Source: Phenylobacterium sp.
GTDB taxonomy: Bacteria; Pseudomonadota; Alphaproteobacteria; Caulobacterales; Caulobacteraceae
Assembly: GCF_030651755.1 (NCBI RefSeq)
Contig: NZ_JAUSBZ010000161.1
Coordinates: 1-54,003 of the forward strand
Length of the DNA: 54,003 nucleotides
Direction of reading: 5' to 3'
The stretch's first letter is position 1. The number at the start of each line of letters is the position of its first letter. Both the position numbers and the translations under genes were made by a program. Shown here in pieces: positions 2,534-54,003 of this stretch. The notes beneath the pieces were generated by a model. The model was not told the DNA's origin, made no database searches, and saw nothing but the letters and a program-made list of their open reading frames with translations.

Positions 2534-4309
2534 TCAGTAGGCCAATGCCACCCCGTCCTTGCGCATCTCGGTGGCAGCAGCATAGCGACCGGGCCAGCGC
2601 TCGATGGCCTGGTAGCCGCCGAAGCTGCCGTCGCTCTCGCCAATCTTCCAGCCCAGATCGACCAGGGCCTTGCGGGTGGCGGCCGGCACGCCGCTTTCCA
2701 GATGCAGCAGACCGGTTCCCGGCGTGACCTCGCCGGTGGGCTCAGAGCCGCCGCCGTGACGCCAGCGGGGGCTGTCGCCGGCCTCCTGCAGCGAGAGGTC
2801 GAAGTCGACCATGTTGGAGATGATCTGGGCCTGGCCCTGGGGCTGCATATCGCCGCCCATGACGCCGAAGGACAGCCACGGCGCCCCGTCCTTCACCGCA
2901 AAGCCCGGGATGATGGTCTGGAAGGGCCGCTTGGCTGGCGCATAGACATTGGGGTGGCCGTCGGTCAGGGCGAACATCTCGCCGCGGTTCTGCAGCATGA
3001 AGCCCAGGCCGTCGGGCGCCAGGCCAGACCCCATGCCGCGATAGTTGGACTGGATGATCGAAACCATCATCCCGTCCTTGTCGGCGGTGGTGAAATAGGT
3101 GGTGTCGCCCCGGGTCGGCGCCTGGCCGGCATAGACCGTCGGCAGGATCGAATCCGGGCGGATCAGACGGGCGCGTTCGGCGGCGTAATCCTTGGAGATC
3201 AGCCAGTCAGCCGGCGCGTCATAGAAGGACGGATCGGCGTAGTAGCGGGCGCGGTCCTCGAAGGCCAGCCGCTTGGCCTCGACCCCATGGTGGATGGCGG
3301 CCGCCGACTGGAAGCCCATGCCGCGGAGATCGAACCGCTCCATGATGTTGAGCTGCTGCAGGGTCGCCAGGCCCTGGCTGTTGGGGCCGAGACTGTAGAC
3401 GTCCACCCCGCGATAATTGCTGGAATAGGCCTTGGTCCATTCCGCCCGGTGGGCGGCGAGGTCCGCCTTGGTCATCCAGCCGCCGATCCGCTGGAAATAG
3501 CGCTCAATGGTTTCGGCGATCTCGCCCTCGTAGAAGGCCTCGCGGCCCCCCTCGGCGATCAGGCTGTAGGTGCGGGCCAGCGCCGGGTTCTTGAAGATCT
3601 CGCCTTCGCGGGGCGTGCGCCCCTCCGGCGCCCAGACGGATTTGAAGTTGTCGACCTCCTCGATCCCGAGCGTCCCGCCGGTGAAGTTGGCGTAGCTGCG
3701 CTGCAGGTAGTAGGCGACGTTCTGGCTGATGGCCGCGCCCTCGCTGGCGTGGGCGATGGCCGGCGCAAACAGATCCTTCCAGGGCAGCTTGCCGTAGCGC
3801 CCGTGCAGGGCCGACCAGGCGTCCACCGTTCCGGGCACGCTGACCGAGATGGCGCCGTGCGAGGGGATCAGGCCGTTCTTGGCGCGGGTGCGCACCGTCT
3901 CCAGGGACAGGCCCCGGGGGCTGCGACCCGAGCCGTTCAGGCCCACGACCTGCTTGGTCTTCGGATCCCACAGCATGACGAAACAGTCGCCGCCGATGCC
4001 ACAGGCGATGGGCTCGGCATAGCCCAGCACCGCATTGGCGGCGATGGCGGCGTCCACCGCCGAGCCCCCGGCCCGCAGAATGTCGATGGCCGCCAGGGTC
4101 GCCAGAGGATGCGCCGTGGCCGCCGCCCCGTGGGTCCCCCAGGCCGCGCTGCGGCTGGCGAAGGTCGCCCCGTCGATCCGGTCGCCCGGGCCTACGTCGG
4201 GCCGGTTGCGGTTGGGCGTCGCCTCCCGGCTCTGCCCAGCCGCCCCGCTGGCGAAGAGCGCACCGGGCAAGGCGGCGGGCAGGGCGGCCAGGAAGGTGCG
4301 GCGACGCAT
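2534..4309 (-). CDS. gamma-glutamyltransferase family protein, Tat-exported
   Basis: An Ntn-hydrolase precursor of 591 residues that would cleave itself and then hydrolyse or transfer gamma-glutamyl groups, for example from glutathione, in the periplasm. The N-terminus MRRRTFLAALPAALPGALFA has the twin-arginine export pattern. The autoprocessing site lies at RGDTTYFTTADKDG, with Thr403 as the likely nucleophile. The block FGVMGGDMQPQGQAQI is like the YwrD branch of the family rather than E. coli Ggt. The start at 4309 is chosen over an in-frame ATG at 4369 because GGAG lies 7 bases upstream and the signal peptide then becomes N-terminal. It precedes the mmcQ-like gene. The substrate is not predictable from sequence. 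Confidence 0.9.
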   Translation of the reverse strand: MRRRTFLAALPAALPGALFASGAAGQSREATPNRNRPDVGPGDRIDGATFASRSAAWGTHGAAATAHPLATLAAIDILRAGGSAVDAAIAANAVLGYAEPIACGIGGDCFVMLWDPKTKQVVGLNGSGRSPRGLSLETVRTRAKNGLIPSHGAISVSVPGTVDAWSALHGRYGKLPWKDLFAPAIAHASEGAAISQNVAYYLQRSYANFTGGTLGIEEVDNFKSVWAPEGRTPREGEIFKNPALARTYSLIAEGGREAFYEGEIAETIERYFQRIGGWMTKADLAAHRAEWTKAYSSNYRGVDVYSLGPNSQGLATLQQLNIMERFDLRGMGFQSAAAIHHGVEAKRLAFEDRARYYADPSFYDAPADWLISKDYAAERARLIRPDSILPTVYAGQAPTRGDTTYFTTADKDGMMVSIIQSNYRGMGSGLAPDGLGFMLQNRGEMFALTDGHPNVYAPAKRPFQTIIPGFAVKDGAPWLSFGVMGGDMQPQGQAQIISNMVDFDLSLQEAGDSPRWRHGGGSEPTGEVTPGTGLLHLESGVPAATRKALVDLGWKIGESDGSFGGYQAIERWPGRYAAATEMRKDGVALAY

Positions 4310-13259: not shown

Positions 13260-13336
13260 GTTGGGCGTGACGAAGAGTGACGAATAGGCGAGGGTCAACC
13301 CAGCTCGAAGCGGGCTCTGGCTGATCGGGGCGACCA

Positions 13337-14146
13337 TTGAACTATGCCGAAAATGTCGTGCGGTGGTTGCGGGAGCGGCTGGATCGCGGACCGCCCCTGG
13401 CTGAACCCAAGGAGCTCAACCTTGCCCTGCGCGTCCTGGCGCTCTGGCGCGCCTCGCTGATCGTCGACGCCTTCGTGGCGCGGCATGGGCGCAAGGTGCT
13501 GCAGGGTCCGTTCGCAGGTATGGCCTATGTGCAGGGCGCGACCGAGGGCGCCCTGGCGCCCCGGCTGCTCGGGACCTATGAGGCGGAGCTTCATCCCTAT
13601 CTCCTGGCCCTGGTCGCCGAGGGCCTGGACTGCGTGATCGATGTGGGTTGCGCTGAGGGCTACTACGCCGTCGGCATGGCGCTCCTGGCTCCGGGGGCAA
13701 AAATCCACGCCTTCGACACTTCGCCAGAGGCCAGGGCCGCCTGCGCCCAGATGGCGGAGCTGAACGGCGTCAGCGACCGGGTGACGATCGGCGAAACGGT
13801 GAAGCCCGAGGACTTCGAGGCCTTCGCCGGCCCTGGCCGGCTCGTGCTGATGGATGTCGAAGGCGCCGAGGACGACCTGCTTCGCCCGGATATCAGCCCG
13901 GCGCTGGCCCACATGCACATCATCGTCGAGGCGCATGAAGTCTATCGGCCCGGGGTGGCGGCCCGTCTCGCCGAACGGTTCGCAGCGACTCACCATGTCA
14001 CCGAACTTCCGCTGGGCGGCCGGACCCTGCCCCTGCCAGACTGGCTGATGGCGTCAAACCACCTGGATCAGTTGCTGGCGGTCTGGGAATGGCGGCTTGG
14101 CCCGACGCCCTGGCTGGTCATGCGGCCGAAGTCCCTCAACCCCTGA
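13337..14146 (+). CDS. FkbM-like SAM-dependent methyltransferase
   Basis: A 269-residue protein with a class I methyltransferase core at about 95-200: motif I CVIDVGCAEGYYAVGMALLA, motif II KIHAFDTSPEARAAC, and the acidic strand LVLMDVEGAEDDLL typical of the FkbM group, which methylates sugar or polyketide hydroxyls. The first ~90 residues are helical and precede the core. The start is TTG 13337 with GGGG six bases upstream; no in-frame ATG precedes the core. It follows the ABC exporter pair by 77 bases on the same strand, so it may modify the exported molecule, although this is only suggested by position. The last 11 bases overlap the convergent ycaQ-like gene. Confidence 0.75.
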   Translation: MNYAENVVRWLRERLDRGPPLAEPKELNLALRVLALWRASLIVDAFVARHGRKVLQGPFAGMAYVQGATEGALAPRLLGTYEAELHPYLLALVAEGLDCVIDVGCAEGYYAVGMALLAPGAKIHAFDTSPEARAACAQMAELNGVSDRVTIGETVKPEDFEAFAGPGRLVLMDVEGAEDDLLRPDISPALAHMHIIVEAHEVYRPGVAARLAERFAATHHVTELPLGGRTLPLPDWLMASNHLDQLLAVWEWRLGPTPWLVMRPKSLNP

Positions 14147-15374
14147 GGGCGGCGTCCAGGGCCGGCGCAAGGTCGCCGCGGGGCTCAGCCGTCACCTCGC
14201 CCAGACCCAGCCAACCCGCCATGCGGCGGAGCTCGGCCGCCAGCCGGTCCGGTGTCGCAAGCGTGGCGTCCGGCTCGGCATGGGCGGCCATGACGCGCAG
14301 GACGCCGGCCTTGCGGTCGGCTTTCAGGTCCACACGAGCGGTGATCGCCTCGTCCTCCAGAAAGGGCAGGACGTAATAGCCATGGGTGCGCTTTTCGGCC
14401 GGCGTGTAGATTTCCAGCCTTATCCGCACGCCAAACAACCGCTCCGTGCGTTCGCGAAACCAGATCAGATTGTCGAAGGGCGACAGGAGCGCGGCAGTGG
14501 TGATCTTCCGGGGCTTGCGGGCCTTGGGGTCGAGATAGGCGATCTGACTCCATCCCTGCACCTGCACGGGAACAAGCTCACCGCCCTCCACAAGGCTTGC
14601 GATCTGGCTGCGGGTTTCGCCCGGCGACATGCGGAAATAGTCGCGCAGGTCCCGCTCGGTGGCCACGCCCTGCGCCCGCGCGGCGATGCGCAGCAGTTCC
14701 CGTTGAGCGGTGTCGCGGGACGGGGTCGGCGCCCCATGAATGTCGGCCGGCAGGACCTCCTGGGGCAGGCCATAGACCCGCTCGAAGGTCGCCCGCCGGG
14801 TGGCCGTGGTCAGGCGGCCGGTCCAGAACAGGCATTCGGCCGCCCGCTTGGCCTCGCTCCAGCCCCACCAGCCCCCTGCCCCTTTGACGCCGAGCTCCAG
14901 CTCCGAGGCTGAGAGGGGGCCGCGGGCGGCGATGGCCTCAATGGCCCGGTCCATCAGGGCGGGGTGTTCGCGCAGAAACCGGGCCACGCCCTTCCAGACG
15001 CCGACGCCCTCGCGGGCGTCTTCCATCCGCCAGCGCAGCAAGGGTTGGGTCGCCAGGGGCAGGAGCGAAGCCTCGTGGGCCCAGTACTCAAAAAACCAGG
15101 GGCGCCGCCCCCAGGCCAGGCTCTCCAGGGCGTCGCGAGGATAGGCGCCCAGCCGGGAGAAGAAGGGCAGATAGTGGGTGCGCGAGACCACATTCACCGA
15201 GTCGATCTGGACCACCCCCAGGCGGTCCATGGTCTCAATCAGGTGGCGGCGGACCGGCTTAGCCGGGCGACTTCGCCCAAACCCCTGAGCCGCCAGGGCG
15301 ATGCGGCGCGCCTGGGCCGCGCTGAGCCGTTCGAGCGCGCGTTCGGGGAAAATGGAGCCTGGTCTGGGGGGCAA
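14136..15374 (-). CDS. winged-helix DNA glycosylase, YcaQ/AlkX family
   Basis: A 412-residue protein of the YcaQ (HTH_42) family. E. coli YcaQ is a DNA glycosylase that unhooks interstrand crosslinks and removes bulky alkylated bases. The catalytic QxD motif is present (VQIDSVNVV, Gln56 and Asp58), followed by the conserved HYLPFFSRLGAYP and the EYWAHEASLLP block; winged-helix repeats follow through the middle and a beta-rich C-terminus (LLSPFDNLIWFRERTERLFG). The start is uncertain: TTG 15374 gives a family-like N-terminus but has no clear ribosome-binding site. It lies 63 bases downstream of the histidine kinase gene on the same strand. Role inferred: repair of alkylation or crosslink damage, possibly self-resistance. 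Confidence 0.85.
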   Translation of the reverse strand: MPPRPGSIFPERALERLSAAQARRIALAAQGFGRSRPAKPVRRHLIETMDRLGVVQIDSVNVVSRTHYLPFFSRLGAYPRDALESLAWGRRPWFFEYWAHEASLLPLATQPLLRWRMEDAREGVGVWKGVARFLREHPALMDRAIEAIAARGPLSASELELGVKGAGGWWGWSEAKRAAECLFWTGRLTTATRRATFERVYGLPQEVLPADIHGAPTPSRDTAQRELLRIAARAQGVATERDLRDYFRMSPGETRSQIASLVEGGELVPVQVQGWSQIAYLDPKARKPRKITTAALLSPFDNLIWFRERTERLFGVRIRLEIYTPAEKRTHGYYVLPFLEDEAITARVDLKADRKAGVLRVMAAHAEPDATLATPDRLAAELRRMAGWLGLGEVTAEPRGDLAPALDAALRG

Positions 15375-15437
15375 GGCGCACCAACTCAGGAATCTAGTGG
15401 CGCCTGGCCGGGAGGCCCAGGCACGATGGTCTCTGAC

Positions 15438-16943
15438 TCAGCGATCACGCCAGTCGGCCCAATCCTCGGGCTTGGCGGAGGGGACTGCCGCCTCGACCTC
15501 GCAGACCAGGCCTGAGGAGAGAAACTCCATCCGCACTTCGCCGACAAATTCCGCGGCCAGACCCTGTTGGATGAGGCGCGAGCCGAAGCCTTTACGCTTG
15601 GGTGGGCTGACCGGCGGCCCGCCGGTTTCGCGCCAGACGAGGTGCAGTTTTAGCGGACTATGGTCGGTATCCAGGCGCCAGCCCAGATGAACCTGCCCTG
15701 TGTCGTTGCTTAAGGGTCCGTACTTGGCCGCATTGGTGGCGAGTTCATGGAAGGCCAGGGCCATGGCGATGGCGGTCCGTGGGGGCAGGGTCACCCTTGG
15801 GCCCTCGATTTTAAACCGATCAGCGCCATAGGGCTCGGCGGCCTGGGCGGCGATCTCCTCCAGCTCGGCGCCGGCCCATTTCGTATCGGTCAGGACGTCA
15901 TGCGCCCTGGCGAGGGCGAGCAGCCGCGAGGTCAGCGCCTCGCGAACCTCATGGGGCACGCCGCCGCTTCGCAGGGTCTGGGTGGCGATCGCCTGCACAG
16001 TCGCCAGGGAGTTTTTCACCCGGTGATTCAGCTCGTGGACCATCAGGCGCAGGTGATCCTCGGCCAGCTTCCGCTCAGTGATGTCGCGGAAGAAGATGGC
16101 CAGGCCCTCCTCGACGGGATTGCCGCGCACGTCGAGCCAGGTGATCCGTCCATCGGGGAATTCGTAGCGGTTCTCAATGGCGAAGGCCGTGCGTTCAGTC
16201 ATCGCCTGGCGATAGATGTGGCCGATCGACATATCGAAGGTGTCTGGCCAGACGTCCCAGTGGTTCTGGCCGATGAAAGTCTCCCGGGGGCGACCATCGA
16301 CCCGAACGCCTTCGGCGTTGATTTCGAGAATGGTGAAATCGTGCGCCAGCAGCAGGAAGCCATCGGTCATACCCGCCAGGACACTGTGCGCGCGATCGCG
16401 CTCGGCCTTGAGGGCGGCCTCAGCGCGCACCTGCTCGGTGACTTCCAGGACAAACGCAATCACACCGGCGGGACGACCGGCCTCGTCGAACACGGGCGAG
16501 TAGTCCAGGTTCATCACCACGGACTCGGGCAGGCCGTTTCGGTAGAGCACCAGCTCCTGATTCTTGTAGGACAGGGAGCCTCCCGCCAGGCCGACCTGCA
16601 TCACATGGCGGTTGAAGTCGGCCACTTCAGGCCACCCCTCCAGCACATTGCTGCCCAGCAGCCTGGGATGGCGGCCGCCCGCAAATACCGAATAGGCGTC
16701 ATTGTAGAGCATGACGCCCTTCGGCCCCCACAGCATGACGATCGGGGTCGGCGAGTGCAGGAGCATGCCCAGGGCGCTCAACAGGGTCTGAGGCCAGTCA
16801 CGGACGGGGCCAATTGGACTGTCGGTCCAGTCCATCTCCGCGATCAGGGCGCCGGTCTCGCCACCAGCCCGCAGGAAATCGATCCGATCAACAGTGTGGC
16901 CGGACCCTACGGGCTCGGGCGTGCTCCCACTTGATGATGACAC
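15438..16943 (-). CDS. HWE-family sensor histidine kinase with two PAS domains
   Basis: A 501-residue soluble kinase with no membrane segments. Residues ~45-170 and ~185-292 form two PAS folds (the second ends with the PAC-like IFFRDITERKLAEDHL). The phospho-acceptor box is MVHELNHRVKNSLATVQAIA with His307; the ATPase has FHELATNAAKYG, and WRE (Trp437, Glu439) defines the HWE class. The catalytic domain lacks classical F/G2 boxes, as usual in this class. The start is GTG 16943 with GGAG about 10 bases upstream. No response regulator is encoded nearby, so it is an orphan kinase. Such kinases often control general stress response or light and redox signalling in alphaproteobacteria; the signal here is unknown. 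Confidence 0.88.
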   Translation of the reverse strand: MSSSSGSTPEPVGSGHTVDRIDFLRAGGETGALIAEMDWTDSPIGPVRDWPQTLLSALGMLLHSPTPIVMLWGPKGVMLYNDAYSVFAGGRHPRLLGSNVLEGWPEVADFNRHVMQVGLAGGSLSYKNQELVLYRNGLPESVVMNLDYSPVFDEAGRPAGVIAFVLEVTEQVRAEAALKAERDRAHSVLAGMTDGFLLLAHDFTILEINAEGVRVDGRPRETFIGQNHWDVWPDTFDMSIGHIYRQAMTERTAFAIENRYEFPDGRITWLDVRGNPVEEGLAIFFRDITERKLAEDHLRLMVHELNHRVKNSLATVQAIATQTLRSGGVPHEVREALTSRLLALARAHDVLTDTKWAGAELEEIAAQAAEPYGADRFKIEGPRVTLPPRTAIAMALAFHELATNAAKYGPLSNDTGQVHLGWRLDTDHSPLKLHLVWRETGGPPVSPPKRKGFGSRLIQQGLAAEFVGEVRMEFLSSGLVCEVEAAVPSAKPEDWADWRDR

Positions 16944-44725: not shown

Positions 44726-44777
44726 AGCGGCCGGGGCGCCCAAGTCGCAGGCGCGGCCTGGACCGTCGGGGCAATCG

Positions 44778-44805
44778 GTATTACGAAAATTGACGAACGT
44801 AATAC
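44778..44805. promoter_or_regulatory. NikR-type operator: GTATTACG-N12-CGTAATAC
   Basis: A perfect inverted repeat of 8-base arms at 44778-44785 and 44798-44805. Read as GTATTA-N16-TAATAC it has the same half-site spacing as the E. coli NikR operator GTATGA-N16-TCATAC. It ends 18 bases before the start codon of a NikR-fold regulator, which makes that protein the natural binder. It is AT-rich in an otherwise GC-rich region. Confidence 0.75.
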
Positions 44806-44817
44806 TAGAGCCAAGAT
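44790..44817 (+). promoter_or_regulatory. candidate promoter overlapping the operator
   Basis: TTGACG (44790-44795) and CAAGAT (44812-44817), spacer 16, place transcription at or next to the ATG at 44824. No ribosome-binding site precedes that ATG, so a leaderless mRNA would fit. The -35 box lies inside the operator, so a bound regulator would block transcription. Confidence 0.4.
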
Positions 44818-44823
44818 CGCCTC

Positions 44824-45306
44824 ATGACCGTGGAACCGATTTCCCAGCTTGCCCGCCTCAGTGTCAGCCTGCCGGCCGAACTCCTGGCCCAGCTCGATGC
44901 GATGGTGGCCGAGCGCGCCCTGCCCAGCCGTTCGCAGATGATCGCCGAGCTGATTCGCCATGAGCTGGCCGAGCACAGCGAGGGCCGGGACGGGGCGATC
45001 CTGGCCGGGACCATCACCCTGATCTATCGGGCCGAGAGCGGCCGGGTGCGCCAGGCCCTGGCCCAGGCGCAAGGGCTGTTCCTCAAGGAGGTCATCTCCT
45101 CGCAGCACGTCTTCCTGGAGGACGACCAGTCCCTGGAGGTGCTGCTCGTCCAGGGACCGTCTGAGCGACTGCATATGCTGTGCGACGAACTCCGCCGGAT
45201 CCGTGGGGTGCATCAGATCCGCCTGGTCACCACCCGCGCCCTGCTGCCCCCGCTGCACGCCCACGGGCGCGGCGGCAAGAGCGCCCTCGCCGGAGGCGCG
45301 GCATGA
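44824..45306 (+). CDS. NikR-like ribbon-helix-helix regulator lacking nickel ligands
   Basis: A 160-residue protein with an N-terminal ribbon-helix-helix (RLSVSLPAELLAQLDAMVAE, SRSQMIAELIRHELA) and a C-terminal ACT-type domain (LIYRAESGRVRQALAQAQ, SSQHVFLEDDQSLEVLLVQG). It aligns gap-free in the second domain with E. coli NikR at an offset of 8. Of the four Ni ligands (His76, His87, His89, Cys95) only His87 is kept (His95); the others are Gly84, Phe97 and Ser103. It is therefore unlikely to sense nickel like NikR. It begins the guanidine/urea operon, its stop overlapping the next start by four bases (ATGA). The ligand may be a pathway compound; this is inference. Confidence 0.88.
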   Translation: MTVEPISQLARLSVSLPAELLAQLDAMVAERALPSRSQMIAELIRHELAEHSEGRDGAILAGTITLIYRAESGRVRQALAQAQGLFLKEVISSQHVFLEDDQSLEVLLVQGPSERLHMLCDELRRIRGVHQIRLVTTRALLPPLHAHGRGGKSALAGGAA

Positions 45307-46133
45307 CCGGCTCGTCCACCGCCGATCCCAAGGGCGCCCAGACCCATGCCCGCGCGCAAGGCGCCACCCGCATTGAGGCGATGCCGACCCTGCCGCCGAG
45401 CGCGGCGAGCGACCTCCCGGCCGGCGTGGCGGCTGACGACATGCTCTGGGAAGAGACGATCGGGGCCGGGGGCTACGCCGCCAAGCGGCTGAACCGCGGC
45501 GCGCGGCTGCGCCTGGTCGACCTGCAGGGCGACGCCTGCGCCTCCATGCTGGTGTTCAACGCCGAGAACCCCGTGGAGCGCCTGAATGTCGCCGACACGG
45601 TCAAGGTGCAGTGGAACGCCTATCTGGGCCAGGGCCGCCTGCTGCTGTCGGATATGGGGCGGGTCATGATGAGCCTGCTGGAGGACGGGGCTGAGACCCA
45701 CGACGCCTTCTGCGGCGCGTCCAATGCGGCCTCCAATGCCCGACGCTATGGATCAGGTGACAACTGGGGTCCCCACCCCAACGCCCGGGACCGCTTCTCC
45801 CTGGCGCTGGCCAAGTTCGGTCTGGGCCGTAAGGACATCCATCCCTGCATCAACTGGTTCAAGGGCGTTAAGATCGACGCCGACGGCGCGGTGGAGACCC
45901 ACGTCGGTCCCTATCCGCCCGGTCGCAGCCTGACCCTGCGAGCGGAGATGGACGTCATCGTGGTGCTGGCCAACTGCCCGCATGTTCGCGACCCCCGCCC
46001 TGAGTACAGCGTCACCCCGCTGCGGGTCAGCGCCTGGCGCGGGCCGGTGACAGCGCAGGACGATCCCATCCGCAATGCGACGCCGGAGGGCCTGCGGGCC
46101 TTTCTGAATGTCGAAGACTATTTCTGTCGCTAA
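45303..46133 (+). CDS. urea amidolyase-associated protein 1 / carboxyguanidine deiminase subunit
   Basis: A 276-residue protein of the UAAP1 family (DUF1989 superfamily). Those proteins, next to urea carboxylase genes, were shown in Pseudomonas to form with UAAP2 a carboxyguanidine deiminase that produces allophanate and ammonia. Typical blocks are LWEETIGAGGYAAKRLNRGA, LRLVDLQGDACASMLVFNAE, DAFCGASNAASNARRYG, DIHPCINWFKGVKID and TLRAEMDVIVVLANCPHVRD, with conserved Cys that may bind zinc. The start overlaps the regulator stop by four bases. It precedes UAAP2 by 14 bases. Confidence 0.9.
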   Translation: MTGSSTADPKGAQTHARAQGATRIEAMPTLPPSAASDLPAGVAADDMLWEETIGAGGYAAKRLNRGARLRLVDLQGDACASMLVFNAENPVERLNVADTVKVQWNAYLGQGRLLLSDMGRVMMSLLEDGAETHDAFCGASNAASNARRYGSGDNWGPHPNARDRFSLALAKFGLGRKDIHPCINWFKGVKIDADGAVETHVGPYPPGRSLTLRAEMDVIVVLANCPHVRDPRPEYSVTPLRVSAWRGPVTAQDDPIRNATPEGLRAFLNVEDYFCR

Positions 46134-46147
46134 GAGGGGCCGCCGCC

Positions 46148-46780
46148 ATGACCGACACTGCTCTGGCCGGACTGCCTGGTCCTGTGCTGCATGACGAGAT
46201 CGTGCCCGCCCTGGCCCCCTGGGACCATGTGGTGCGCAAGGGCGAGGTGCTGCGAATCATCGACCTGGAGGGCAACCAGGCTGTGGACTTCCTGATGTAC
46301 GCGCTCGCCGACGACGCCGAGCGCTACAGCGCCCAGGACACCATCGCCGCCCAGGGCAACATCTTCCTGCGCACGGGCTCGGTGCTGTTGTCGAACGAGG
46401 GAAACCCGATGGCCACGGTGCTGGGCACCTCGGTGGCCTATCACGACACCATCGGCGGGGCCTGTTCCTGCGAGAGCAACACCCTGCGCTATGGCCATCA
46501 CACCAAGGGCCAGCACGCCTGTGTCGAGAACTTCCTGCAGGCCAACGCCCGCCACGGGCGGGGCAAGCGCGACATGGTCTCCAACATCAACTGGTTCATG
46601 AATGTCCCCGTTGAGGCGGACGGCGCGCTCGGCATCGTGGACGGCATCTCTGCCCCAGGCCTCTATGTGGACATCCGCGCCGAGATGGATCTGGTGGCGG
46701 TGGTCTCCAACTGCCCGCAGATCAACAACCCCTGCAACGGCTTCAATCCGACGCCGGTGCGCATGATCATCGCCGCCTGA
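46148..46780 (+). CDS. urea amidolyase-associated protein 2 / carboxyguanidine deiminase subunit
   Basis: A 210-residue UAAP2-family protein, paralogous to the preceding product. Shared pattern: a binding block (RIIDLEGNQAVDFLMYALAD), a CSCESNTLRYGHHTKGQH stretch with His and Cys, SNINWFMNVPVEADG and DIRAEMDLVAVVSNCPQINN. With UAAP1 it forms the deiminase that acts on carboxyguanidine in the guanidine pathway. The start ATG at 46148 has GAGGGG upstream. It ends 14 bases before the carboxylase GTG start. Confidence 0.9.
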   Translation: MTDTALAGLPGPVLHDEIVPALAPWDHVVRKGEVLRIIDLEGNQAVDFLMYALADDAERYSAQDTIAAQGNIFLRTGSVLLSNEGNPMATVLGTSVAYHDTIGGACSCESNTLRYGHHTKGQHACVENFLQANARHGRGKRDMVSNINWFMNVPVEADGALGIVDGISAPGLYVDIRAEMDLVAVVSNCPQINNPCNGFNPTPVRMIIAA

Positions 46781-46794
46781 GCAGGGTCGTTCCA

Positions 46795-49700
46795 GTGTTC
46801 ACCAAGGTTCTCGTCGCCAACCGCGGCGCCATCGCCTGCCGCATCCTGCGCACGCTCAAGGAGATGGGCGTGGCCTCGGTGGCGGTGTTTTCCGACGCCG
46901 ACGCCGGCTCCCTCCATGTCAGCCAGGCCGATGAGGCGGTGCGGATCGGGCCGGCGCCGGCGGCCCAGTCCTATCTGGACGTCGAGGCCATCCTGGCCGC
47001 CGCCCGCGCCACAGGCGCCCAGGCCATCCATCCCGGCTATGGCTTCCTGAGCGAGAACGTGGCCTTCGCCGAGGCCTGCGAGGCCGCCGGGATCGCCTTT
47101 ATCGGTCCGACGCCGGACAATATCCGCGCCTTTGGCCTTAAGCACACGGCGAGAGACCTGGCCCAGGCCCAGGGTGTGCCGCTGGCGCCGGGAACTGACC
47201 TGCTCACCGACGCCGACGCGGCGCTGGCTGCAGCCGGGGCGATCGGCTTCCCGGTGATCCTGAAGGCGACCGCCGGCGGCGGCGGCATCGGCATGCGGGT
47301 CTGCGAGGACGCTGCCGCCGTGGCCGAGGCCTTCGCCGCGGTCAGCCGCCTGGCGGGCAGCAACATCTCCGACGGCGGGGTCTTCCTGGAGCGCTATGTC
47401 CGCCAGGCCCGGCATATCGAGGTCCAGGTCTTCGGGGACGGCCAGGGCCATGTGGTCGCGCTCGGCGAGCGGGACTGCTCCCTCCAGCGGCGCAACCAGA
47501 AGGTCATCGAGGAGACGCCGGCCCCGCATCTGCCGGCCGCCACCCGACAGGCCCTGATCAAGGCCGCCGTGCGCCTGACGTCAGCGGCCCGCTACCGCTC
47601 GGCCGGCACGGTGGAGTTCCTCTATGACGCCGAGCGCGACGACTTCTTCTTCCTGGAGGTGAACACCCGCCTGCAGGTCGAACACGGGGTCACCGAGCAG
47701 GTCACCGGCGTCGATCTGGTGGCCTGGATGATCCGCGGCGCGGCGGGGGACTATGGGTTCCTGGAGGGCTTCGAGGCCAGACCCCAGGGCGCCTCGATCC
47801 AGGCCCGCCTCTATGCCGAGGACCCGGGCCAGGACTATCGGCCCAGTTCCGGGGTTCTGACAGAGGCGCATTTCCCCGACGGGGTCCGCGCCGACTCCTG
47901 GGTAGTGGACGGAACCGAGGTTAGCGCCTTCTACGACCCGCTGCTGGCCAAGCTGATCGTCACCGCGCCGGATCGAGAACAGGCCGTGGCGGCCCTGCAG
48001 CAGGCCCTGGACGACACGCGCCTGGCGGGGCTGGAGACCAATCTGGAATGGCTGCGCCAGGTGGCCCGCAGCGCGGCGTTCGTGTCAGGCCAGGTTTCGA
48101 CCCGAGCCCTCGCCGACATCGCTTTCCAGCCTCAGACCATCCGTGTGCTAAGCGGCGGGCCGGCGACCACGGTCCAGGACTATCCGGGCCGCCAGGGCTA
48201 CTGGGATGTGGGCGTCCCGCCATCCGGCCCGATGGACGCCCTGGCCTTCCGACTGGGCAACCGCCTGCTGGGCAATATGGAGACCGCCGCGGGGCTGGAG
48301 ATCACCGCCCTTGGCCCCACCCTGCTGTTCAACCGCACCGCCTCGGTCTGCCTGGCCGGCGCCGCCCTTGAGGCGAGCCTGGATGGCGCGCCGATCGAGC
48401 CCTACGTCCCGTTCCAGATCGCCGCCGGCCAGACCCTGAAGCTCGGGCGGGTGAAGGGGGCGGGGCTTAGGGCCTATCTCCTGGTTCGCGGCGGGCTGGA
48501 CGTGCCGGCCTATCTGGGCAGCCGGGCGAGCTTCACCCTCGGCGGGTTCGGGGGCCATGCCGGCCGCACCCTGGCGGCTGGCGACGTCCTGCGGGTCGGC
48601 GATGGCCTGATTGGGCCGCCGCGGGCGTCGCTTGCGTGGGATCAGCGGCCGTCGCTCGCCAAGGCCTGGAGCCTGCGCGTGCTGGCCGGTCCCCATGGGG
48701 CGCCGGACTTCTTCACCGAGGCCGACGTGGCGATGATCGCCAGCGCCCCGTGGAAGGTCCACTACAACTCCAATCGCACCGGCGTGCGGCTGATCGGGCC
48801 AACGCCGCAGTGGGCGCGCCGGGACGGGGGGGAGGCGGGTCTGCAGCCCTCCAACATCCACGACAACGCCTACGCCATCGGCGCGGTGGATTTCACCGGC
48901 GACATGCCGATCATCCTGGGGCCGGACGGCCCGTCCCTGGGGGGCTTTGTCTGTCCCTTCGTGATTATCCAGGCCGATCTGTGGAAGGCCGGTCAGCTGG
49001 CGCCCGGCGATACGGTGACCTTCCAGGTGGTCAGCGACCATGAGGCCGTGGCCGCAGAGAAAGCTCAGGACGCTCTGATCGCCGGCGCCCCGCCGCCGGC
49101 CCCGTCGCAGACGCCTGCGCCCGCCGTGCTTTCCAGCGACAGCCCGATTCTCGGGGTTATCGAGGCCGCCGGCCATCGACCCCGCGCCGTCTATCGTCGC
49201 CAGGGGGACCGCCACCTGCTGGTGGAGTACGGCCCCATTGTGCTCGACCTCGAGCTGCGCCTGCGCATCCACGCCCTGATGCTCGAGCTGAAATCCATGG
49301 CGCTGCCAGGCGTCATCGACATCACCCCGGGCATCCGCTCGCTGCAGGTCCACTATGACAGCCGGGTGCTGTCGCAGGCCGAGCTGCTGCGGGCGCTCAC
49401 CGACGCGGAAGACCGGCTGGGCGGGCTCGACGACTTCGAAATCCCCTCCCGGGTGGTCCATCTGCCGCTCTCGTGGAAAGACCCGGCGATCTACGAGACC
49501 ATCGACAAGTACATGGCCTCGGTGCGGGACGACGCCCCCTGGTGCCCGGACAACATCGAGTTCATCCGGCGGATCAACGGCCTGGCCAGCGAGGACGATG
49601 TCCATCGCATCGTCTTCGACGCGCGCTATCTGGTGATGGGGCTGGGCGACGTCTATCTGGGCGCGCCGGTGGCCACCCCCATCGACCCGCGCCACCGGCT

Positions 49701-50409
49701 GGTGACCACCAAGTACAACCCCGCCCGCACCTGGACCCCGCCCAATGTGGTGGGTATCGGCGGAGCCTATATGTGCATCTATGGGATGGAGGGGCCGGGC
49801 GGCTACCAGCTGTTTGGCCGCACCATCCAGGTCTGGAACACCTATCGCCAGACGAACGCCTTCACCGAGGGCAAGCCCTGGCTGCTGCGGTTCTTCGACC
49901 AGATCCGGTTTTTCCCCGTGTCTCACGAGGAGCTGACCGAGTGGCGTCGGGACTTCCCGCTGGGGCGGCGCGAAATCCGCATCGACCACGAGACCTTCCG
50001 CCTGTCAGACTACCGCCGCTTCCTGGCCGACAACGCCGCCAGCATCGCGGCCTTCCAGACGACCCGCGAAACCGCCTTCGACGCTGAACGCGCCGAGTGG
50101 GAACGCCGCGGCGAGTTCGCTCGGGTCGAGGCCCTGGCCAGCGCCGCCGATGATGTGGCCGAGGCGCCGGAAATCATCGTCCCCGACGGCGCAGAACTGG
50201 TCGAAGCGCCGCTCGGCGGCAGCGTCTGGAAGATGCTGGTCCAGCCCGGCGACCGGGTCGAGAAGGGCGCGGTCATCGCCATCATCGAGGCCATGAAGAC
50301 CGAGTGCGATGTGACGAGCCCCACCGCCGGCGTCGTCCGCCAGGTCTACGCCCAGGAACGCCAGGCCATCGCGCCCGGCGCACCGATGATCGCCGTCGAA
50401 CCCACCTGA
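46795..50409 (+). CDS. urea/guanidine carboxylase (biotin-dependent)
   Basis: A 1204-residue multidomain enzyme that carboxylates guanidine or urea using ATP and bicarbonate. Domains in order: biotin carboxylase (~1-445) with ATP-grasp (VILKATAGGGGIGMRVCE, FFFLEVNTRLQVEHGVTEQV); carboxyltransferase part B/AHS2 from ~450 (RVLSGGPATTVQDYPGRQGY, GVPPSGPMDALAFRLGN); part A/AHS1 from ~796 (DRHLLVEYGPIVLDLELRLR); a core with MGLGDVYLGAPVATPIDPRH and GIGGAYMCIYGMEGPGGYQL; and a biotinyl domain with EAMKTE, Lys1168. The start is GTG 46795. Bacterial enzymes clustered with UAAP1/2 prefer guanidine; allophanate hydrolase is separate here, unlike fungal DUR1,2. Substrate inferred from the cluster. Confidence 0.93.
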   Translation: MFTKVLVANRGAIACRILRTLKEMGVASVAVFSDADAGSLHVSQADEAVRIGPAPAAQSYLDVEAILAAARATGAQAIHPGYGFLSENVAFAEACEAAGIAFIGPTPDNIRAFGLKHTARDLAQAQGVPLAPGTDLLTDADAALAAAGAIGFPVILKATAGGGGIGMRVCEDAAAVAEAFAAVSRLAGSNISDGGVFLERYVRQARHIEVQVFGDGQGHVVALGERDCSLQRRNQKVIEETPAPHLPAATRQALIKAAVRLTSAARYRSAGTVEFLYDAERDDFFFLEVNTRLQVEHGVTEQVTGVDLVAWMIRGAAGDYGFLEGFEARPQGASIQARLYAEDPGQDYRPSSGVLTEAHFPDGVRADSWVVDGTEVSAFYDPLLAKLIVTAPDREQAVAALQQALDDTRLAGLETNLEWLRQVARSAAFVSGQVSTRALADIAFQPQTIRVLSGGPATTVQDYPGRQGYWDVGVPPSGPMDALAFRLGNRLLGNMETAAGLEITALGPTLLFNRTASVCLAGAALEASLDGAPIEPYVPFQIAAGQTLKLGRVKGAGLRAYLLVRGGLDVPAYLGSRASFTLGGFGGHAGRTLAAGDVLRVGDGLIGPPRASLAWDQRPSLAKAWSLRVLAGPHGAPDFFTEADVAMIASAPWKVHYNSNRTGVRLIGPTPQWARRDGGEAGLQPSNIHDNAYAIGAVDFTGDMPIILGPDGPSLGGFVCPFVIIQADLWKAGQLAPGDTVTFQVVSDHEAVAAEKAQDALIAGAPPPAPSQTPAPAVLSSDSPILGVIEAAGHRPRAVYRRQGDRHLLVEYGPIVLDLELRLRIHALMLELKSMALPGVIDITPGIRSLQVHYDSRVLSQAELLRALTDAEDRLGGLDDFEIPSRVVHLPLSWKDPAIYETIDKYMASVRDDAPWCPDNIEFIRRINGLASEDDVHRIVFDARYLVMGLGDVYLGAPVATPIDPRHRLVTTKYNPARTWTPPNVVGIGGAYMCIYGMEGPGGYQLFGRTIQVWNTYRQTNAFTEGKPWLLRFFDQIRFFPVSHEELTEWRRDFPLGRREIRIDHETFRLSDYRRFLADNAASIAAFQTTRETAFDAERAEWERRGEFARVEALASAADDVAEAPEIIVPDGAELVEAPLGGSVWKMLVQPGDRVEKGAVIAIIEAMKTECDVTSPTAGVVRQVYAQERQAIAPGAPMIAVEPT

Positions 50410-50420
50410 AGGAGTCTGGG

Positions 50421-52199
50421 ATGGACCGCCTCTCCGTCGCCGCCATCGCCGCCGAGGTCCGGTCAGGCCGCCGAACGGCCGAGGACGTCGCCCGCGACAG
50501 CCTGGCGCGGATCGCCGCCTATGACGCGGTTCAGCCCCAGGCCTGGATCGAACGTCAAAAGGCCGAGGCCGTCCTCGCCGCCGCCCGGGCGGTGGACGCC
50601 CGGCTGGCCGCCGGCGAGGACCTGCCTTTGGCCGGTGCGCCCTTTGCGGTGAAGGACAATATCGATGTGGCCGGTCTACCCACCACCGCAGCCTGCCCCG
50701 CCTATGCCTATGCCCCGGAGGAGACCGCCACAGTGGTGGCGCGCCTGCAGGCGGCGGGCGCGGTTCTGATGGGCAAGACCAATCTCGACCAGTTCGCCAC
50801 GGGCCTGGTGGGCAGCCGCACGCCCTATGGCATCCCGGCCTGCGTGTTCAATCGCGACTATGTGAGCGGCGGCTCCAGCTCGGGCAGCGCCGTGGCGGTG
50901 GGGGCGGGGCTGGTGGCCTTTGCGCTGGGCACCGACACGGCCGGCTCTGGACGGGTGCCGGCCGCCTTCAACGGCTTGGTGGGCCTCAAGCCCACCAAGG
51001 GCAGCTGGAGCACCGCAGGGCTCGTCCCGGCCTGTCGGTCGCTGGACTGCATCACAGTCTTCACCGCCACCGCCGCCGATGCAGCCCTGGTGGACTCCGT
51101 GGCCGCAGGCTTTGACCCCGCCGATCCTTATTCCCGCCAGCCCGGTCCGGCCGCGCCGGCTCTGGGAGCCGCCTATCGCATGGGCGTGCCGCGCCTCGAC
51201 CAGCTCAACTATCTGGGCGATGCGGCGTCTGAGCGGTTCTACGACCAGGCCATCGCCCGCTTGGCCGCCACCGGCGCGACCCTGGTGGAGGTGGATATCG
51301 CCCCCCTGCTGGAGGCCGCGCAACTGCTCTATGCCGGGCCGTGGGTGGCCGAGCGCACCGCCGCCATCGAGGACCTGCTGCGCACCCGGCCCGCCGCCGT
51401 CCACCCCGTGGTGCGGGCCATCGTCCAGACCGGCTTTGGCGTCTCAGGCCTGGAGACCTTCAAGGGCCTATATGCGCTGCAGGACCACGCCCGGACAGCC
51501 CAGGCCCTGTGGGAGACCATCGACGTCCTGTTGCTGCCCACGGCGCCGACCATCTACCGGATCAGCGAAGTGCTCGCCGAGCCCTTCGCGCTGAACGCCA
51601 ATCTGGGCCTCTACACCAACTTCGTGAACCTGCTCGACATGAGCGCCATCGCCGTGCCGGCCGGCTACCGGGACAACGGGACCGGCTTTGGCGTCACCCT
51701 GATCGGTCCGGCTTGGGCGGACACCGCCCTGCTCGACCTCGCCCGTCGCTATGAGGAGATCCGTCCCATGCCCGCCGTCCCTGAGCTCGACACCGCCGGA
51801 AAGCCGCAGACCGTGAAGCTGAGCGTCGTCGGCGCCCATCTGGCCGGCATGCCCCTGCACTGGCAACTCACCTCCCGCGACGCCCGTCTGGTGGCCCGCA
51901 CCCGCACCGCGCCGGCCTATAGGCTTTATGCGATGGCCGAGACGACGCCGCCGAAACCAGCCCTGATTCACGTGGGCGAGGCCGACGGCGCCGCCATCGA
52001 GGTCGAGGTCTATGAGCTGGATGTGGCGGGCTTCGGCGGGTTCACCGCCGAGGTGCCCGCGCCCCTGGCGATCGGCACGGTGAGCCTGGAGGATGGGACC
52101 ACGGTGAAGGGCTTCGTCGCCGAGCCCCGGGCGCTGGCGGGCGCGACGGACATCACCCACCTGGGCGGCTGGCGCGCCTATATCGCCAGCTTGGCCTAA
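50421..52199 (+). CDS. atzF: allophanate hydrolase
   Basis: A 592-residue amidase-signature enzyme that hydrolyses allophanate to two ammonia and two CO2, the last step of the pathway. Catalytic residues: Lys78 (FAVKDNID), cis-Ser152 (GGSSSGSAVAV) and nucleophile Ser176 (TDTAGSGRVPAAF). The C-terminal ~120 residues form the allophanate-hydrolase-specific domain (MPLHWQLTSRDARLVARTRT, GFVAEPRALAGATDITHLGG). GGAG lies seven bases before ATG 50421. A candidate terminator starts 27 bases after the stop, inside the converging ABC gene. The symbol is for the homologous family and does not imply an atrazine pathway. Confidence 0.93.
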   Translation: MDRLSVAAIAAEVRSGRRTAEDVARDSLARIAAYDAVQPQAWIERQKAEAVLAAARAVDARLAAGEDLPLAGAPFAVKDNIDVAGLPTTAACPAYAYAPEETATVVARLQAAGAVLMGKTNLDQFATGLVGSRTPYGIPACVFNRDYVSGGSSSGSAVAVGAGLVAFALGTDTAGSGRVPAAFNGLVGLKPTKGSWSTAGLVPACRSLDCITVFTATAADAALVDSVAAGFDPADPYSRQPGPAAPALGAAYRMGVPRLDQLNYLGDAASERFYDQAIARLAATGATLVEVDIAPLLEAAQLLYAGPWVAERTAAIEDLLRTRPAAVHPVVRAIVQTGFGVSGLETFKGLYALQDHARTAQALWETIDVLLLPTAPTIYRISEVLAEPFALNANLGLYTNFVNLLDMSAIAVPAGYRDNGTGFGVTLIGPAWADTALLDLARRYEEIRPMPAVPELDTAGKPQTVKLSVVGAHLAGMPLHWQLTSRDARLVARTRTAPAYRLYAMAETTPPKPALIHVGEADGAAIEVEVYELDVAGFGGFTAEVPAPLAIGTVSLEDGTTVKGFVAEPRALAGATDITHLGGWRAYIASLA

Positions 52200-52207
52200 C
52201 TCAGAGC

Positions 52208-52981
52208 TCAGACCTCACCCGCCATGGCCGCGATCTCCCTGGGGATCGCGGTCTTTTGCTTGTCGTCCAGCGGGAAATCATAGACCGCCGTGGAGCCATA
52301 GCGCTGCGGCGCGTGGGGATCGTGACGGCGCTTGTCCACCGCGATGACCCGGGTGCCCAGCTTGAAGGCCTCCTTGATGTCGTGGGTGACCATCAGGATG
52401 GTCAGACCGTGCTCGCGCCACAGGCCGGTGATCAGCTCGTGCATGTCCAGGCGCACCCCCGGGTCTAGCGCACCGAAGGGTTCGTCCAGCAACAGGATGC
52501 GCGGCCTGGTGATCAGGGCCTGGGCGATGGCCAGGCGCTGCTGCATGCCGCCTGACAGCGCCCGCGGGAAGGCCTTGAGCGAGGCGGAGAGACCCACCTG
52601 CTCCAGGATCGCCAGGGCCTCGGCCTTGGCTTGGCGGCGCTTGGCGCCGGTGAGCAGGCCGGTGAAGGGCGCCTGGTCGCACCGGGCGCCGAACATGACG
52701 TTCTGAAGCACGGTCATGTGCGGAAAGACCGAGTAGCGCTGGAAGACCACGCCGCGGTCAGGGCCGGGCTCGGCCGGGATGGGCTGCCCATCCAGCAGTA
52801 TCTCCCCGCGGCTGGGCGCTTCCTGGCCCAGCGCCAGGCGCAGGAAGGTGCTCTTGCCAGCGCCGGAGGGTCCGACAATGGAGACAAATGAGCCGGGCGC
52901 CACGTCCAGGCTGACCTTCTCCAGTACAACATGGTCGCCGTACTCGACCCAGACATTGCGGAACGACAGGGCCGGGGTCAT
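52208..52981 (-). CDS. ABC importer ATPase (urea/guanidine-type, TauB-like)
   Basis: A 257-residue ATPase of the nitrate/sulfonate/taurine import class. Walker A GPSGAGKST, signature ALSGGMQQRLAIAQAL, Walker B LLLDEPFGALDP and the switch His in MVTHDIKEAF are intact. A distinctive C-terminal extension (VDKRRHDPHAPQRYGSTAVY through PREIAAMAGEV) is typical of the ATPases clustered with urea carboxylase genes. The start overlaps the permease stop by four bases. Its 3' end converges on the allophanate hydrolase gene with only eight bases between, and its final codons contain the plus-strand terminator. Confidence 0.92.
   Translation of the reverse strand: MTPALSFRNVWVEYGDHVVLEKVSLDVAPGSFVSIVGPSGAGKSTFLRLALGQEAPSRGEILLDGQPIPAEPGPDRGVVFQRYSVFPHMTVLQNVMFGARCDQAPFTGLLTGAKRRQAKAEALAILEQVGLSASLKAFPRALSGGMQQRLAIAQALITRPRILLLDEPFGALDPGVRLDMHELITGLWREHGLTILMVTHDIKEAFKLGTRVIAVDKRRHDPHAPQRYGSTAVYDFPLDDKQKTAIPREIAAMAGEV
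52226..52257 (+). terminator. Rho-independent terminator of the carboxylase operon, inside the ABC ATPase coding end
   Basis: Stem CCGCGATC (52228-52235) with GATCGCGG (52244-52251), loop TCCCTGGG, extended outward by G-U and G-C pairs, followed by TCTTTTGC on the plus strand. It lies 27 bases past the allophanate hydrolase stop but within the last codons of the opposite-strand ATPase gene. Confidence 0.75.
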
Positions 52982-53802
52982 CGGCGGCCCCCTGGGGCAT
53001 GGGCCCAGCGGAAGGCGGTGCGGCTCCAGGTCAGCAGCAGAAGGTCGATGATCACCGCCAGCAGGGAGATCCAGGCGACGTAGGGCAGGATGATGTCCAT
53101 GGCCAGGTAGCGGCGAACCAGAAAGATGCGGTAGCCGAGACCCACGTCCGAGGCGATGGCCTCGGCGGAGATCAGGAACACCCAGGCCGGGCCCAGCGAG
53201 AAGCGCACGCTGTCGATCAGCCGCGGCATCGCCTGGGGCAGGGCGACCTGCAGGGCCACCAGCCAGGTGGAGGCGCCCAGCGTCTGGGCCTTGACGATCT
53301 GCTCCTCGGGGATGGCCGCCACGTGGGAAGCGAGGTCGCGGACCATGAAGGGGGTGATGCCGACGAAGATCAGCACGATCTTGGCGGTCTCGCCTAAGCC
53401 AAAGACAATGAACAATATGGGCAGGACGGCGATGGGCGGGATCACCGATATGGTGGCCACCAGGGGACCAAGGCCTGCCCTCGCATAGGGCAATAGGCCG
53501 ATGGAAAGCCCGAGCACCAGGGTCGTGGCGGCCGCGGCGCCGACGGCGATTCCCAGCCGGGTGAGGCTTGCCTGGGTGTCGGCCACCAGGGGAATCCGGT
53601 CGGTTCGGGGATCCTTCTGCAGGGCCATGATCTGGATGGACTGAGCCATGGCCGCGGGCGTCGGCAGGATCTTATCGCGGGGGTTTTCCGCGTGGCGGGC
53701 CTGCGAGGCCACCAAATAGACCAGGACCAGGATCGCGATGGGCAAGAGGCCCAGAAGGAGGCGACCGCCGCCACGCGGCCTAGCGTTCAGCAATCGGCGC
53801 AT
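52978..53802 (-). CDS. ABC importer permease
   Basis: A 274-residue binding-protein-dependent permease with about six membrane helices. The EAA loop reads EEQIVKAQTLGASTWLVALQ, followed by VALPQAMPRLIDSVRFSLGPA. It belongs to the SsuC/TauC group. The start at 53802 has GAGG upstream. Its stop overlaps the ATPase start by four bases, so the two are translationally coupled. With the partial binding protein upstream it forms one import operon pointing toward the carboxylase operon; the substrate (urea or guanidine) is inferred from this neighbourhood. Confidence 0.92.
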   Translation of the reverse strand: MRRLLNARPRGGGRLLLGLLPIAILVLVYLVASQARHAENPRDKILPTPAAMAQSIQIMALQKDPRTDRIPLVADTQASLTRLGIAVGAAAATTLVLGLSIGLLPYARAGLGPLVATISVIPPIAVLPILFIVFGLGETAKIVLIFVGITPFMVRDLASHVAAIPEEQIVKAQTLGASTWLVALQVALPQAMPRLIDSVRFSLGPAWVFLISAEAIASDVGLGYRIFLVRRYLAMDIILPYVAWISLLAVIIDLLLLTWSRTAFRWAHAPGGRR

Positions 53803-53852
53803 GGGGCGGTCACCTCGATCAGGGGTACTCAGCTACGGGGGCGAGCGGGGCG

Positions 53853-54003
53853 CTAGAGGGCGCCGTCGACCGCCATCTGGGTATAGGTCGGATCAAAGCG
53901 CAGCGTGACGTTCTCGGCGTTGCCCAGGATCTTGCCGCCAGGGAAGCTGATGCCGATGTCATCCACCGACCGGGCGCCTTGGCCAAACAGCCCGGCCTGG
54001 AAG
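53853..54003 (-). CDS. ABC importer substrate-binding protein (C-terminal fragment at window edge)
   Basis: The last 49 codons of a periplasmic binding protein, running off the right edge: SVDDIGISFPGGKILGNAEN, then VTLRFDPTYTQMAVDGAL and a stop. The ending is like that of binding proteins annotated as putative urea transporters next to urea carboxylase genes. It is followed 50 bases on by the permease on the same strand. Most of the gene lies outside the window, so the ligand-binding residues are not visible. Confidence 0.8.
   Translation of the reverse strand, partial: FQAGLFGQGARSVDDIGISFPGGKILGNAENVTLRFDPTYTQMAVDGAL

Follow-up and report, generated by a model that had tools for sequence, protein, structure and literature searches.

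A NikR-like regulator that lacks the nickel ligand set is the first gene of a guanidine carboxylase operon in Phenylobacterium

Introduction

Guanidine biology has been found largely by way of riboswitches. In other bacteria the guanidine-I and guanidine-II riboswitches (ykkC and mini-ykkC), which are RNA aptamers, control guanidine carboxylase operons (available parts of PMC12186494 and PMC12508155), and one carboxylase residue separates the guanidine type, with Asp, from the urea type, with Asn (available part of PMC12186494). On the protein side, the closest described regulator is NikR, a nickel-responsive repressor of the ribbon-helix-helix type. Its nickel ligands are His76', His87, His89 and Cys95 in E. 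coli numbering, and the E. coli operator is GTATGA-N16-TCATAC (both from the available part of PMC7055735).

Here we analyse a stretch of 54,003 nucleotides of Phenylobacterium DNA (the window), in which a relative of NikR precedes a set of guanidine carboxylase genes. All four enzymes of the described guanidine carboxylase pathway are there, as is the Asp of the guanidine-type carboxylase, and only the regulation differs. Within the literature searched, chiefly the main texts of open papers, no paper was found that joins guanidine carboxylase with NikR or CopG. Both PMC2667541 and PMC12153308 mention urea carboxylase and NikR together, and the available part of the former describes no such regulator.

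Results

The regulator has lost three of the four nickel ligands

The features of the regulator are as follows.

44824..45306, + strand: NikR-like regulator of 160 aa that lacks the nickel ligand set, ATG start (open reading frame, Pfam, alignment to structural relatives, ligand comparison)
44854..44970, + strand: ribbon-helix-helix DNA-binding domain, residues 11-49 (Pfam RHH_1)
45004..45234, + strand: NikR_C (ACT-like) regulatory domain, residues 61-137, in which the nickel positions of NikR correspond to G84, H95, F97 and S103 (Pfam NikR_C, structure comparison, ligand columns)
45244..45258, + strand: C-terminal motif LPPLH, residues 141-145, common to most rows of the sister subfamily described below and found in none of the canonical NikR rows compared

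The protein resembles the NikR proteins of E. coli, H. pylori and P. horikoshii in its N-terminal ribbon-helix-helix domain and its NikR_C domain, both of which exceed the Pfam gathering scores (31.3 bits for RHH_1 and 68.7 bits for NikR_C). Among solved structures the best match is P. horikoshii NikR (2bj1, 82 bits), to which residues 8-137 align without a gap, in keeping with the gap-free alignment claimed for the second domain in the preliminary description, and a structure comparison of the C-terminal domain only also matched the NikR fold. Nevertheless, the regulator remained below the cut-offs of all five NCBIfam NikR models that it touched (91 versus 105, 79 versus 111, 63.4 versus 119, 55.2 versus 83 and 52.4 versus 175.45 bits). 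The four columns that hold H, H, H and C in P. horikoshii NikR hold G84, H95, F97 and S103 here, so that the equivalents of H76, H89 and C95 are lost. The 2bj1 alignment and the ligand columns thus bear out the earlier claim that three of the four ligands are replaced and only His95 is kept. Because the defining ligand set was tested for and is not there, this protein should not be filed as NikR; judged by its sequence, it would be a NikR-derived regulator with a new role.

The nickel set HHHC was found in none of the 75 rows of the window type, which are redundant, and in none of the 17 rows of a second set, which partly overlap the first in their genes. Position 84 shows no constraint (G, S, L, Q, A, C, V, T or H in the 75 rows, and also R in the 17-row set), Asn replaces His95 in 13 of the 75, and the Cys is lost in every row. 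Among 20 rows, 14 of the 23 residues of the former nickel loop (89-111) are invariant, as are 65 residues in the protein as a whole. Gln94 and Glu99 are invariant, Phe97 and Asp101 nearly so (74 of the 75 rows have Phe97), and position 103 is Ser or Ala. The conservation of the former nickel loop argues for a new pocket and against decay.

A palindromic operator precedes the regulator gene

44778..44805, no strand assigned: operator, perfect inverted repeat GTATTACG-N12-CGTAATAC, which includes GTATTA-N16-TAATAC (pattern search, footprint in relatives, genome-wide association)

The full site reads GTATTACG-AAAATTGACGAA-CGTAATAC. The perfect palindrome with NikR spacing that had been noticed upstream of the gene is therefore real, and its arms, free of mismatches, are 8 bp long and not 6 bp as first stated. 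The site shares its spacing and outer bases with the E. coli NikR operator, with GTATTA-N16-TAATAC in place of GTATGA-N16-TCATAC, and the regulator is expected to contact it. It ends 18 bp before the start codon of the regulator, so that binding should block transcription of the operon. The site is the sole match in the 54 kb at up to one mismatch, 100 shuffles of the window gave none, and together with the footprint in relatives this rules out a chance palindrome.

The 3.24-Mb genome as a whole holds just one further GTATTA-N16-TAATAC site with at most one mismatch. At two mismatches this pattern is no longer special (3 sites versus 9 for the reversed control), and ATTACG-N12-CGTAAT gives 12 sites versus 9; this level does not discriminate in the own genome, and only sites with 0-1 mismatch are informative.

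The suggested overlap with a candidate -35 box did not hold. The hexamer TTGACG (44790-44795) sits in the 12-bp spacer, and a sigma-70 -35 box as a conserved element of the spacer is ruled out because the spacer diverges among relatives. No clear promoter hexamers were identified, and no promoter is assigned with confidence. In many of the promoters in which the regulator is followed by UAAP1, a second conserved element, approximately GCCYAA...GGCG, precedes the operator core by about 43 bp, with little variation in this spacing. In the window it falls at about 44735-44760, and it may be an activator or a terminator element.

The operon carries a guanidine-type carboxylase

The genes that follow the regulator, and the transporter genes on the opposite strand, are listed here.

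45303..46133, + strand: UAAP1 (DUF1989), TIGR03425 at 302.9 bits against a cut-off of 205.95
46148..46780, + strand: UAAP2 (DUF1989), TIGR03424 at 329.2 bits against a cut-off of 284.7
46795..50409, + strand: urea/guanidine carboxylase, TIGR02712 at 1807.9 bits; Asp699 pairs with K. lactis Asn1330
50421..52199, + strand: allophanate hydrolase, TIGR02713 at 774.3 bits against a cut-off of 511.05
52208..52981, - strand: ABC transporter ATPase of the nitrate/taurine type (profile match; in relatives the operator lies at the promoter end of its operon)
52978..53802, - strand: ABC transporter permease (profile match and gene order in relatives)
53819..54003, - strand: end of a coding frame that runs off the window, at the place of the transporter binding protein (putative, by position)

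The ATG of UAAP1 at 45303 overlaps the TGA stop of the regulator at 45304-45306 in an ATGA, and these coordinates, together with the four enzyme profile matches, confirm that the regulator heads the operon. UAAP1 and UAAP2, which together form carboxyguanidine deiminase, exceed their NCBIfam cut-offs, as do the carboxylase and the allophanate hydrolase. Asp699 of the carboxylase aligns with residue 1330, presumably the specificity position, which is Asn in the K. lactis urea enzyme (5i8i). Asp occupies this column in 53 of 54 carboxylase matches of a redundant set (window-type loci plus L158, L163, L183 and L184) and in all 15 matches from sister-type loci, L158 belonging to both sets. The lone Asn belongs to L184, an unlinked second carboxylase of genome G124. 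Its 14 kb of surroundings contained no regulator and no UAAP match, only an allophanate hydrolase match beside it, and it is a useful internal control for reading the column as guanidine versus urea. The Asp at the specificity column thus supports an enzyme set that would handle guanidine rather than urea.

The remainder of the frame that runs off the window is probably at C48:1-945, on another contig of the same genome. The gene order in relatives makes it probable that the end of the window (54003) continues into the first position of contig C48, with the junction falling within the gene for the transporter binding protein.

The operator accompanies the regulator in relatives

The relatives comprise 53 named loci (833,406 bases), which partly overlap and are related to each other. 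Those nearest the window are Phenylobacterium and Caulobacteraceae MAGs, and related genes are also present in named Caulobacter isolates, including C. vibrioides DSM 9893. In class A (n = 39) the regulator is followed by UAAP1, in class B (n = 12) it comes after a 267-aa protein in a Pot-type operon, and three regulators remain unclassed where contigs end. The operator score in class A is 12/12 in 33 loci, 11/12 in five and 10/12 in one, and the 32 distinct 28-mer sites have nearly invariant arms around a divergent spacer.

Altogether, 76 operator matches of at least 11/12 were found in the 53 loci. Forty precede the regulator and 36 lie about 1.2-1.4 kb beyond the linked transporter permease, where they adjoin a dioxygenase gene in all 17 cases in which the locus reaches that far; none of the 76 falls inside a gene mapped by our query set. 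NikR targets nickel uptake or nickel enzymes, whereas the sites in these 53 loci precede the guanidine operon or the linked transporter and dioxygenase genes. None of the 12 class B regulators has a site of at least 9/12 within 260 bp upstream, in our reading because they sit inside the Pot-type operon. In sphingomonad-type loci the site before the regulator scores only about 10/12, and in L163 it is missing at that place. Across the 47 distinct promoters with a site of at least 10/12, the core is separated from the first in-frame start by 4-22 nt.

The same association was seen at the level of genomes. Among 199 Caulobacteraceae genomes, 32 contain a strong regulator match (E < 1e-40) and nine others only distant matches of the canonical type. 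The exact operator core is present in 29 genomes, namely in 27 of the 32 regulator-positive and 2 of the 167 negative ones (Fisher p 4.6e-26), and a carboxylase at E up to 1e-200 is found in 30 of 32 versus 0 of 167 (Fisher p 1.4e-33), although both values overstate significance as related genomes are not independent. The reversed-pattern control gave matches in two of the 199 genomes. The palindrome is thus present in related genomes and strongly associated with the regulator. Of the regulator-positive genomes without a near-complete carboxylase, G018 has only a piece of the gene and the G030 contig ends in UAAP1. Five of the 32 lack an exact site; G023, G032, G053 and G062 have one of 11/12 and G124 has none.

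The two exact sites in regulator-negative genomes are of different kinds. That of G188 has unmatched flanks and looks like chance. The one of G170 (L178:4985-5008) has full flanks and lies between the 3' ends of two frames; its 10 kb of surroundings contained no regulator, no guanidine genes and no nameable gene start downstream.

A sister subfamily keeps part of the metal site

Twenty canonical-group NikR rows from the same searches provide the comparison. The ligand set is HHHC in 19 of them and HQHT in one (L176), and no carboxylase or UAAP gene was found near any of the 20 in fetched stretches of 6 to 20 kb. In a tree of 44 rows, which carries a long-branch warning, the window-type rows group together (100/99). 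Three intermediate rows fall with them, to the exclusion of canonical NikR (97/95), and the next branch is archaeal NikR. The intermediates share 37-42% identity with the window regulator.

Searching two families with the three intermediates yielded further rows, which we call the sister subfamily; 20 loci were read, 17 newly fetched plus L158-L160, and L272, L274 and L275, being canonical HHHC, were counted with the canonical group. A carboxylase is present in 15 of the 20 loci and UAAP genes at the end of the stretch in two more, while L256, L159 and L160 show only transporter, creatininase-like and/or type III glutamine-synthetase genes. The ligand sets are [Y/R/L]HHT, with YHPT once and YHNT once. 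Thus, 18 of the 20 rows keep HxH and two lack the second His, and position 84 and the Cys are lost. No homologue with intact ligands was found in a carboxylase context, be it among the 75 and 17 window-type rows or the 20 sister rows. The C-terminal motif P[PQ]xH occurs in 18 of the 20 sister rows, in all 10 window-type rows of that comparison and in none of 18 canonical rows (of 20); it is also invariant in the 20 rows compared for the former nickel loop. On these comparisons it is a shared derived feature of the window-type and sister clade.

In 18 of the 20 sister loci, GTATTA-N16-TAATAC with at most one mismatch precedes the substrate-binding gene (21 matches in total, three of them elsewhere or overlapping; 20 mononucleotide shuffles gave a mean of 0.7 and a maximum of 4). 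L159 instead carries GTATGA-N16-TCATAC, the exact E. coli NikR operator, and no operator was found in L270.

A creatininase-like protein and a relative of type III glutamine synthetase are encoded in or beside sister-type guanidine operons (L158:12594-14836, L160:7307-9489, L159:9921-12079).

Half of the sister loci contain a guanidine riboswitch

All 20 sister loci were scanned with Rfam, and 10 of them contain guanidine riboswitches. Guanidine-II precedes the carboxylase in L257, L259, L263, L264, L266 and L273 and UAAP1 in L158, L270 and L271, and the matches in L257 (32.4 bits) and L266 (34.7 bits) exceed the gathering score of 32 by a narrow margin. Guanidine-I occurs in one locus, L261, where the operator (3261-3288) ends 16 nt before the aptamer (3305-3412).

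In contrast, the window gave no Rfam match, in the leader or elsewhere, which rules out a guanidine riboswitch as its regulator, and none was found in 16 further window-type loci scanned (a part of those fetched, including L163 and L071). In these loci the protein may replace the RNA. No guanidine-I match was obtained in the 199 Caulobacteraceae genomes with stricter filters that can lose weak matches; of 14 control genomes in that scan, B. subtilis alone scored.

Discussion

From the fold family, ligand loss, operator, regulon conservation and co-occurrence observed here, we propose, with a probability of roughly 0.6, that this protein is a nickel-independent, NikR-derived autorepressor of guanidine assimilation, the likely inducer being guanidine or a very close guanidino compound. 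As a transcription factor that no longer senses nickel, it would form a tetramer, by homology to NikR, and its two ribbon-helix-helix dimers would clasp the half-sites of ATTACG-N12-CGTAAT. Binding would block, by occlusion or as a roadblock, its own operon of regulator, UAAP1/2, guanidine carboxylase and allophanate hydrolase, and would act likewise at the promoters that serve the linked ABC transporter and the 2-oxoglutarate dioxygenase. The inducer, once accumulated, would bind the retooled regulatory domain, and the protein would release the DNA.

Repression is suggested by the geometry of the operator, which ends 4-22 nt before the start, and by the layout of L261. As the operator of L261 lies 16 nt before the aptamer, the start of transcription must lie within about 16 nt downstream of the operator, in the operator itself or ahead of it. 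Such a position fits occlusion or a roadblock, and an activator site upstream of the promoter would not have the space. Guanidine as the inducer is suggested by the targets, by the riboswitches of the sister operons and by their absence from the window family as scanned; those riboswitches are an independent sign that guanidine is a signal of these operons. The proposal that a NikR-derived switch was re-purposed for a nitrogen compound is thus supported by the regulon and by these riboswitches, with guanidine itself as the probable signal.

The same repressor may instead respond to carboxyguanidine, allophanate, urea, ammonium status or the guanidino compound of the linked dioxygenases. We consider this unlikely, if deserving of serious attention. 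Uptake and dioxygenase genes belong to the regulon, a second copy in the own genome sits in a Pot-type transporter operon beside dioxygenase and aldehyde dehydrogenase genes, and half of the sister operons already sense guanidine by riboswitch, so that the sister NikR-like protein might report another signal. However, uptake genes are usually induced by the substrate that is taken in, and the stricter-filter scan of the 199 Caulobacteraceae genomes offered no guanidine-I riboswitch to sense guanidine in the place of the protein.

A residual or altered metal sensor would repress a nickel-free alternative to urease-type enzymes as long as nickel, or some other metal, is in good supply. The idea has a biological logic in that urea carboxylase works without nickel, and descent from NikR and the HxH of 18 of the 20 sister rows speak for it. 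Against it, the equivalent of His76 varies freely, the Cys is always lost and His95 is Asn in 13 of 75 rows; the sister rows also lack position 84 and the Cys, two of them the second His as well, whereas 19 of 20 canonical rows keep all four ligands. A metal sensor therefore appears improbable, even if some metal contact may persist, given that His95 is kept in most window-type rows and HxH in most sister rows. Still less probable is a constitutive, ligand-free autorepressor or a DNA-architectural protein, in which the regulatory domain merely holds the tetramer together. Ribbon-helix-helix proteins can indeed act without small ligands, but the conserved former nickel loop (14 of 23 residues invariant) and the new conserved C-terminal motif suggest a functional pocket. 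Finally, the second conserved element about 43 bp upstream of the operator would suit an activator, which we regard as very improbable because the core lies 4-22 nt before the first in-frame start, and 16 nt before the aptamer in L261, with no room for a downstream promoter.

If the autorepressor responds to guanidine, it is a candidate for the first known guanidine sensor made of protein rather than RNA. A more specific proposal, which we hold only tentatively and at somewhat below even odds, is that it is the first protein guanidine receptor in transcription, the square-planar nickel pocket of NikR having been remodelled into a guanidinium pocket (Gln94, Glu99, Phe97, Asp101, Ser/Ala103 and the C-terminal Pro-Pro-x-His). 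It would have arisen in a single NikR-family clade with two subfamilies, and these would now govern the assimilation of guanidine in Alphaproteobacteria and another class of Pseudomonadota, either as a substitute for guanidine riboswitches or alongside them. The series HHHC, [Y/R]HHT, xHFS is a graded replacement of a metal site in an intact allosteric fold. For guanidine biology the family provides a tangible small protein whose operator is defined and for which clean controls exist; it could also serve as a guanidine biosensor, and the sister operons with both a protein operator and a guanidine aptamer allow a direct comparison of protein and RNA control in one pathway.

Second regulator copy and linked genes

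In the own genome only two NikR_C proteins were found, the window regulator and a 70%-identical copy at C48:7850-8293, whose pocket, THFS, matches that of the window regulator save at position 84. This copy ends an operon with a PotD-type binding protein. On the same contig, a pair of neighbouring sites with 0-1 mismatch is located between a frame on the reverse strand, taken to be the binding protein of the transporter, and a 2-oxoglutarate dioxygenase gene. A weaker site with two mismatches (C48:13171) lies between the PotD-type binding protein and a second dioxygenase, followed by an aldehyde dehydrogenase; since only 0-1 mismatches are informative, it is suggestive by position alone. Elsewhere in the genome a site with one mismatch is found at C115:1586.

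In several relatives these genes are arranged in one contiguous cluster. In L008, two 2-oxoglutarate dioxygenases and an aldehyde dehydrogenase (1190-2203, 13314-14507 and 14504-15958) stand at operator-bearing promoters. Among solved structures, the one nearest to the second dioxygenase is that of an ethylene/succinate-forming enzyme (9ovh), and the ethylene-forming class also frees guanidine from arginine (available part of PMC12508155). A plausible guess is that the dioxygenases and the aldehyde dehydrogenase might together release guanidine from some guanidino compound and then oxidise the aldehyde.

The 267-aa family, which has no Pfam match, is represented at L008:8353-9156 (- strand) in the Pot-type operon with the second regulator. 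A 32%-identical relative lies at L261:3547-4239 (+ strand), relatives occur in the sister loci L260, L261, L263 and L268, and the family looks guanidine-linked. Adjoining the second regulator, a 414-aa protein (L008:6446-7690, - strand) has by its look two TetR-type halves, the first of which alone matches TetR_N.
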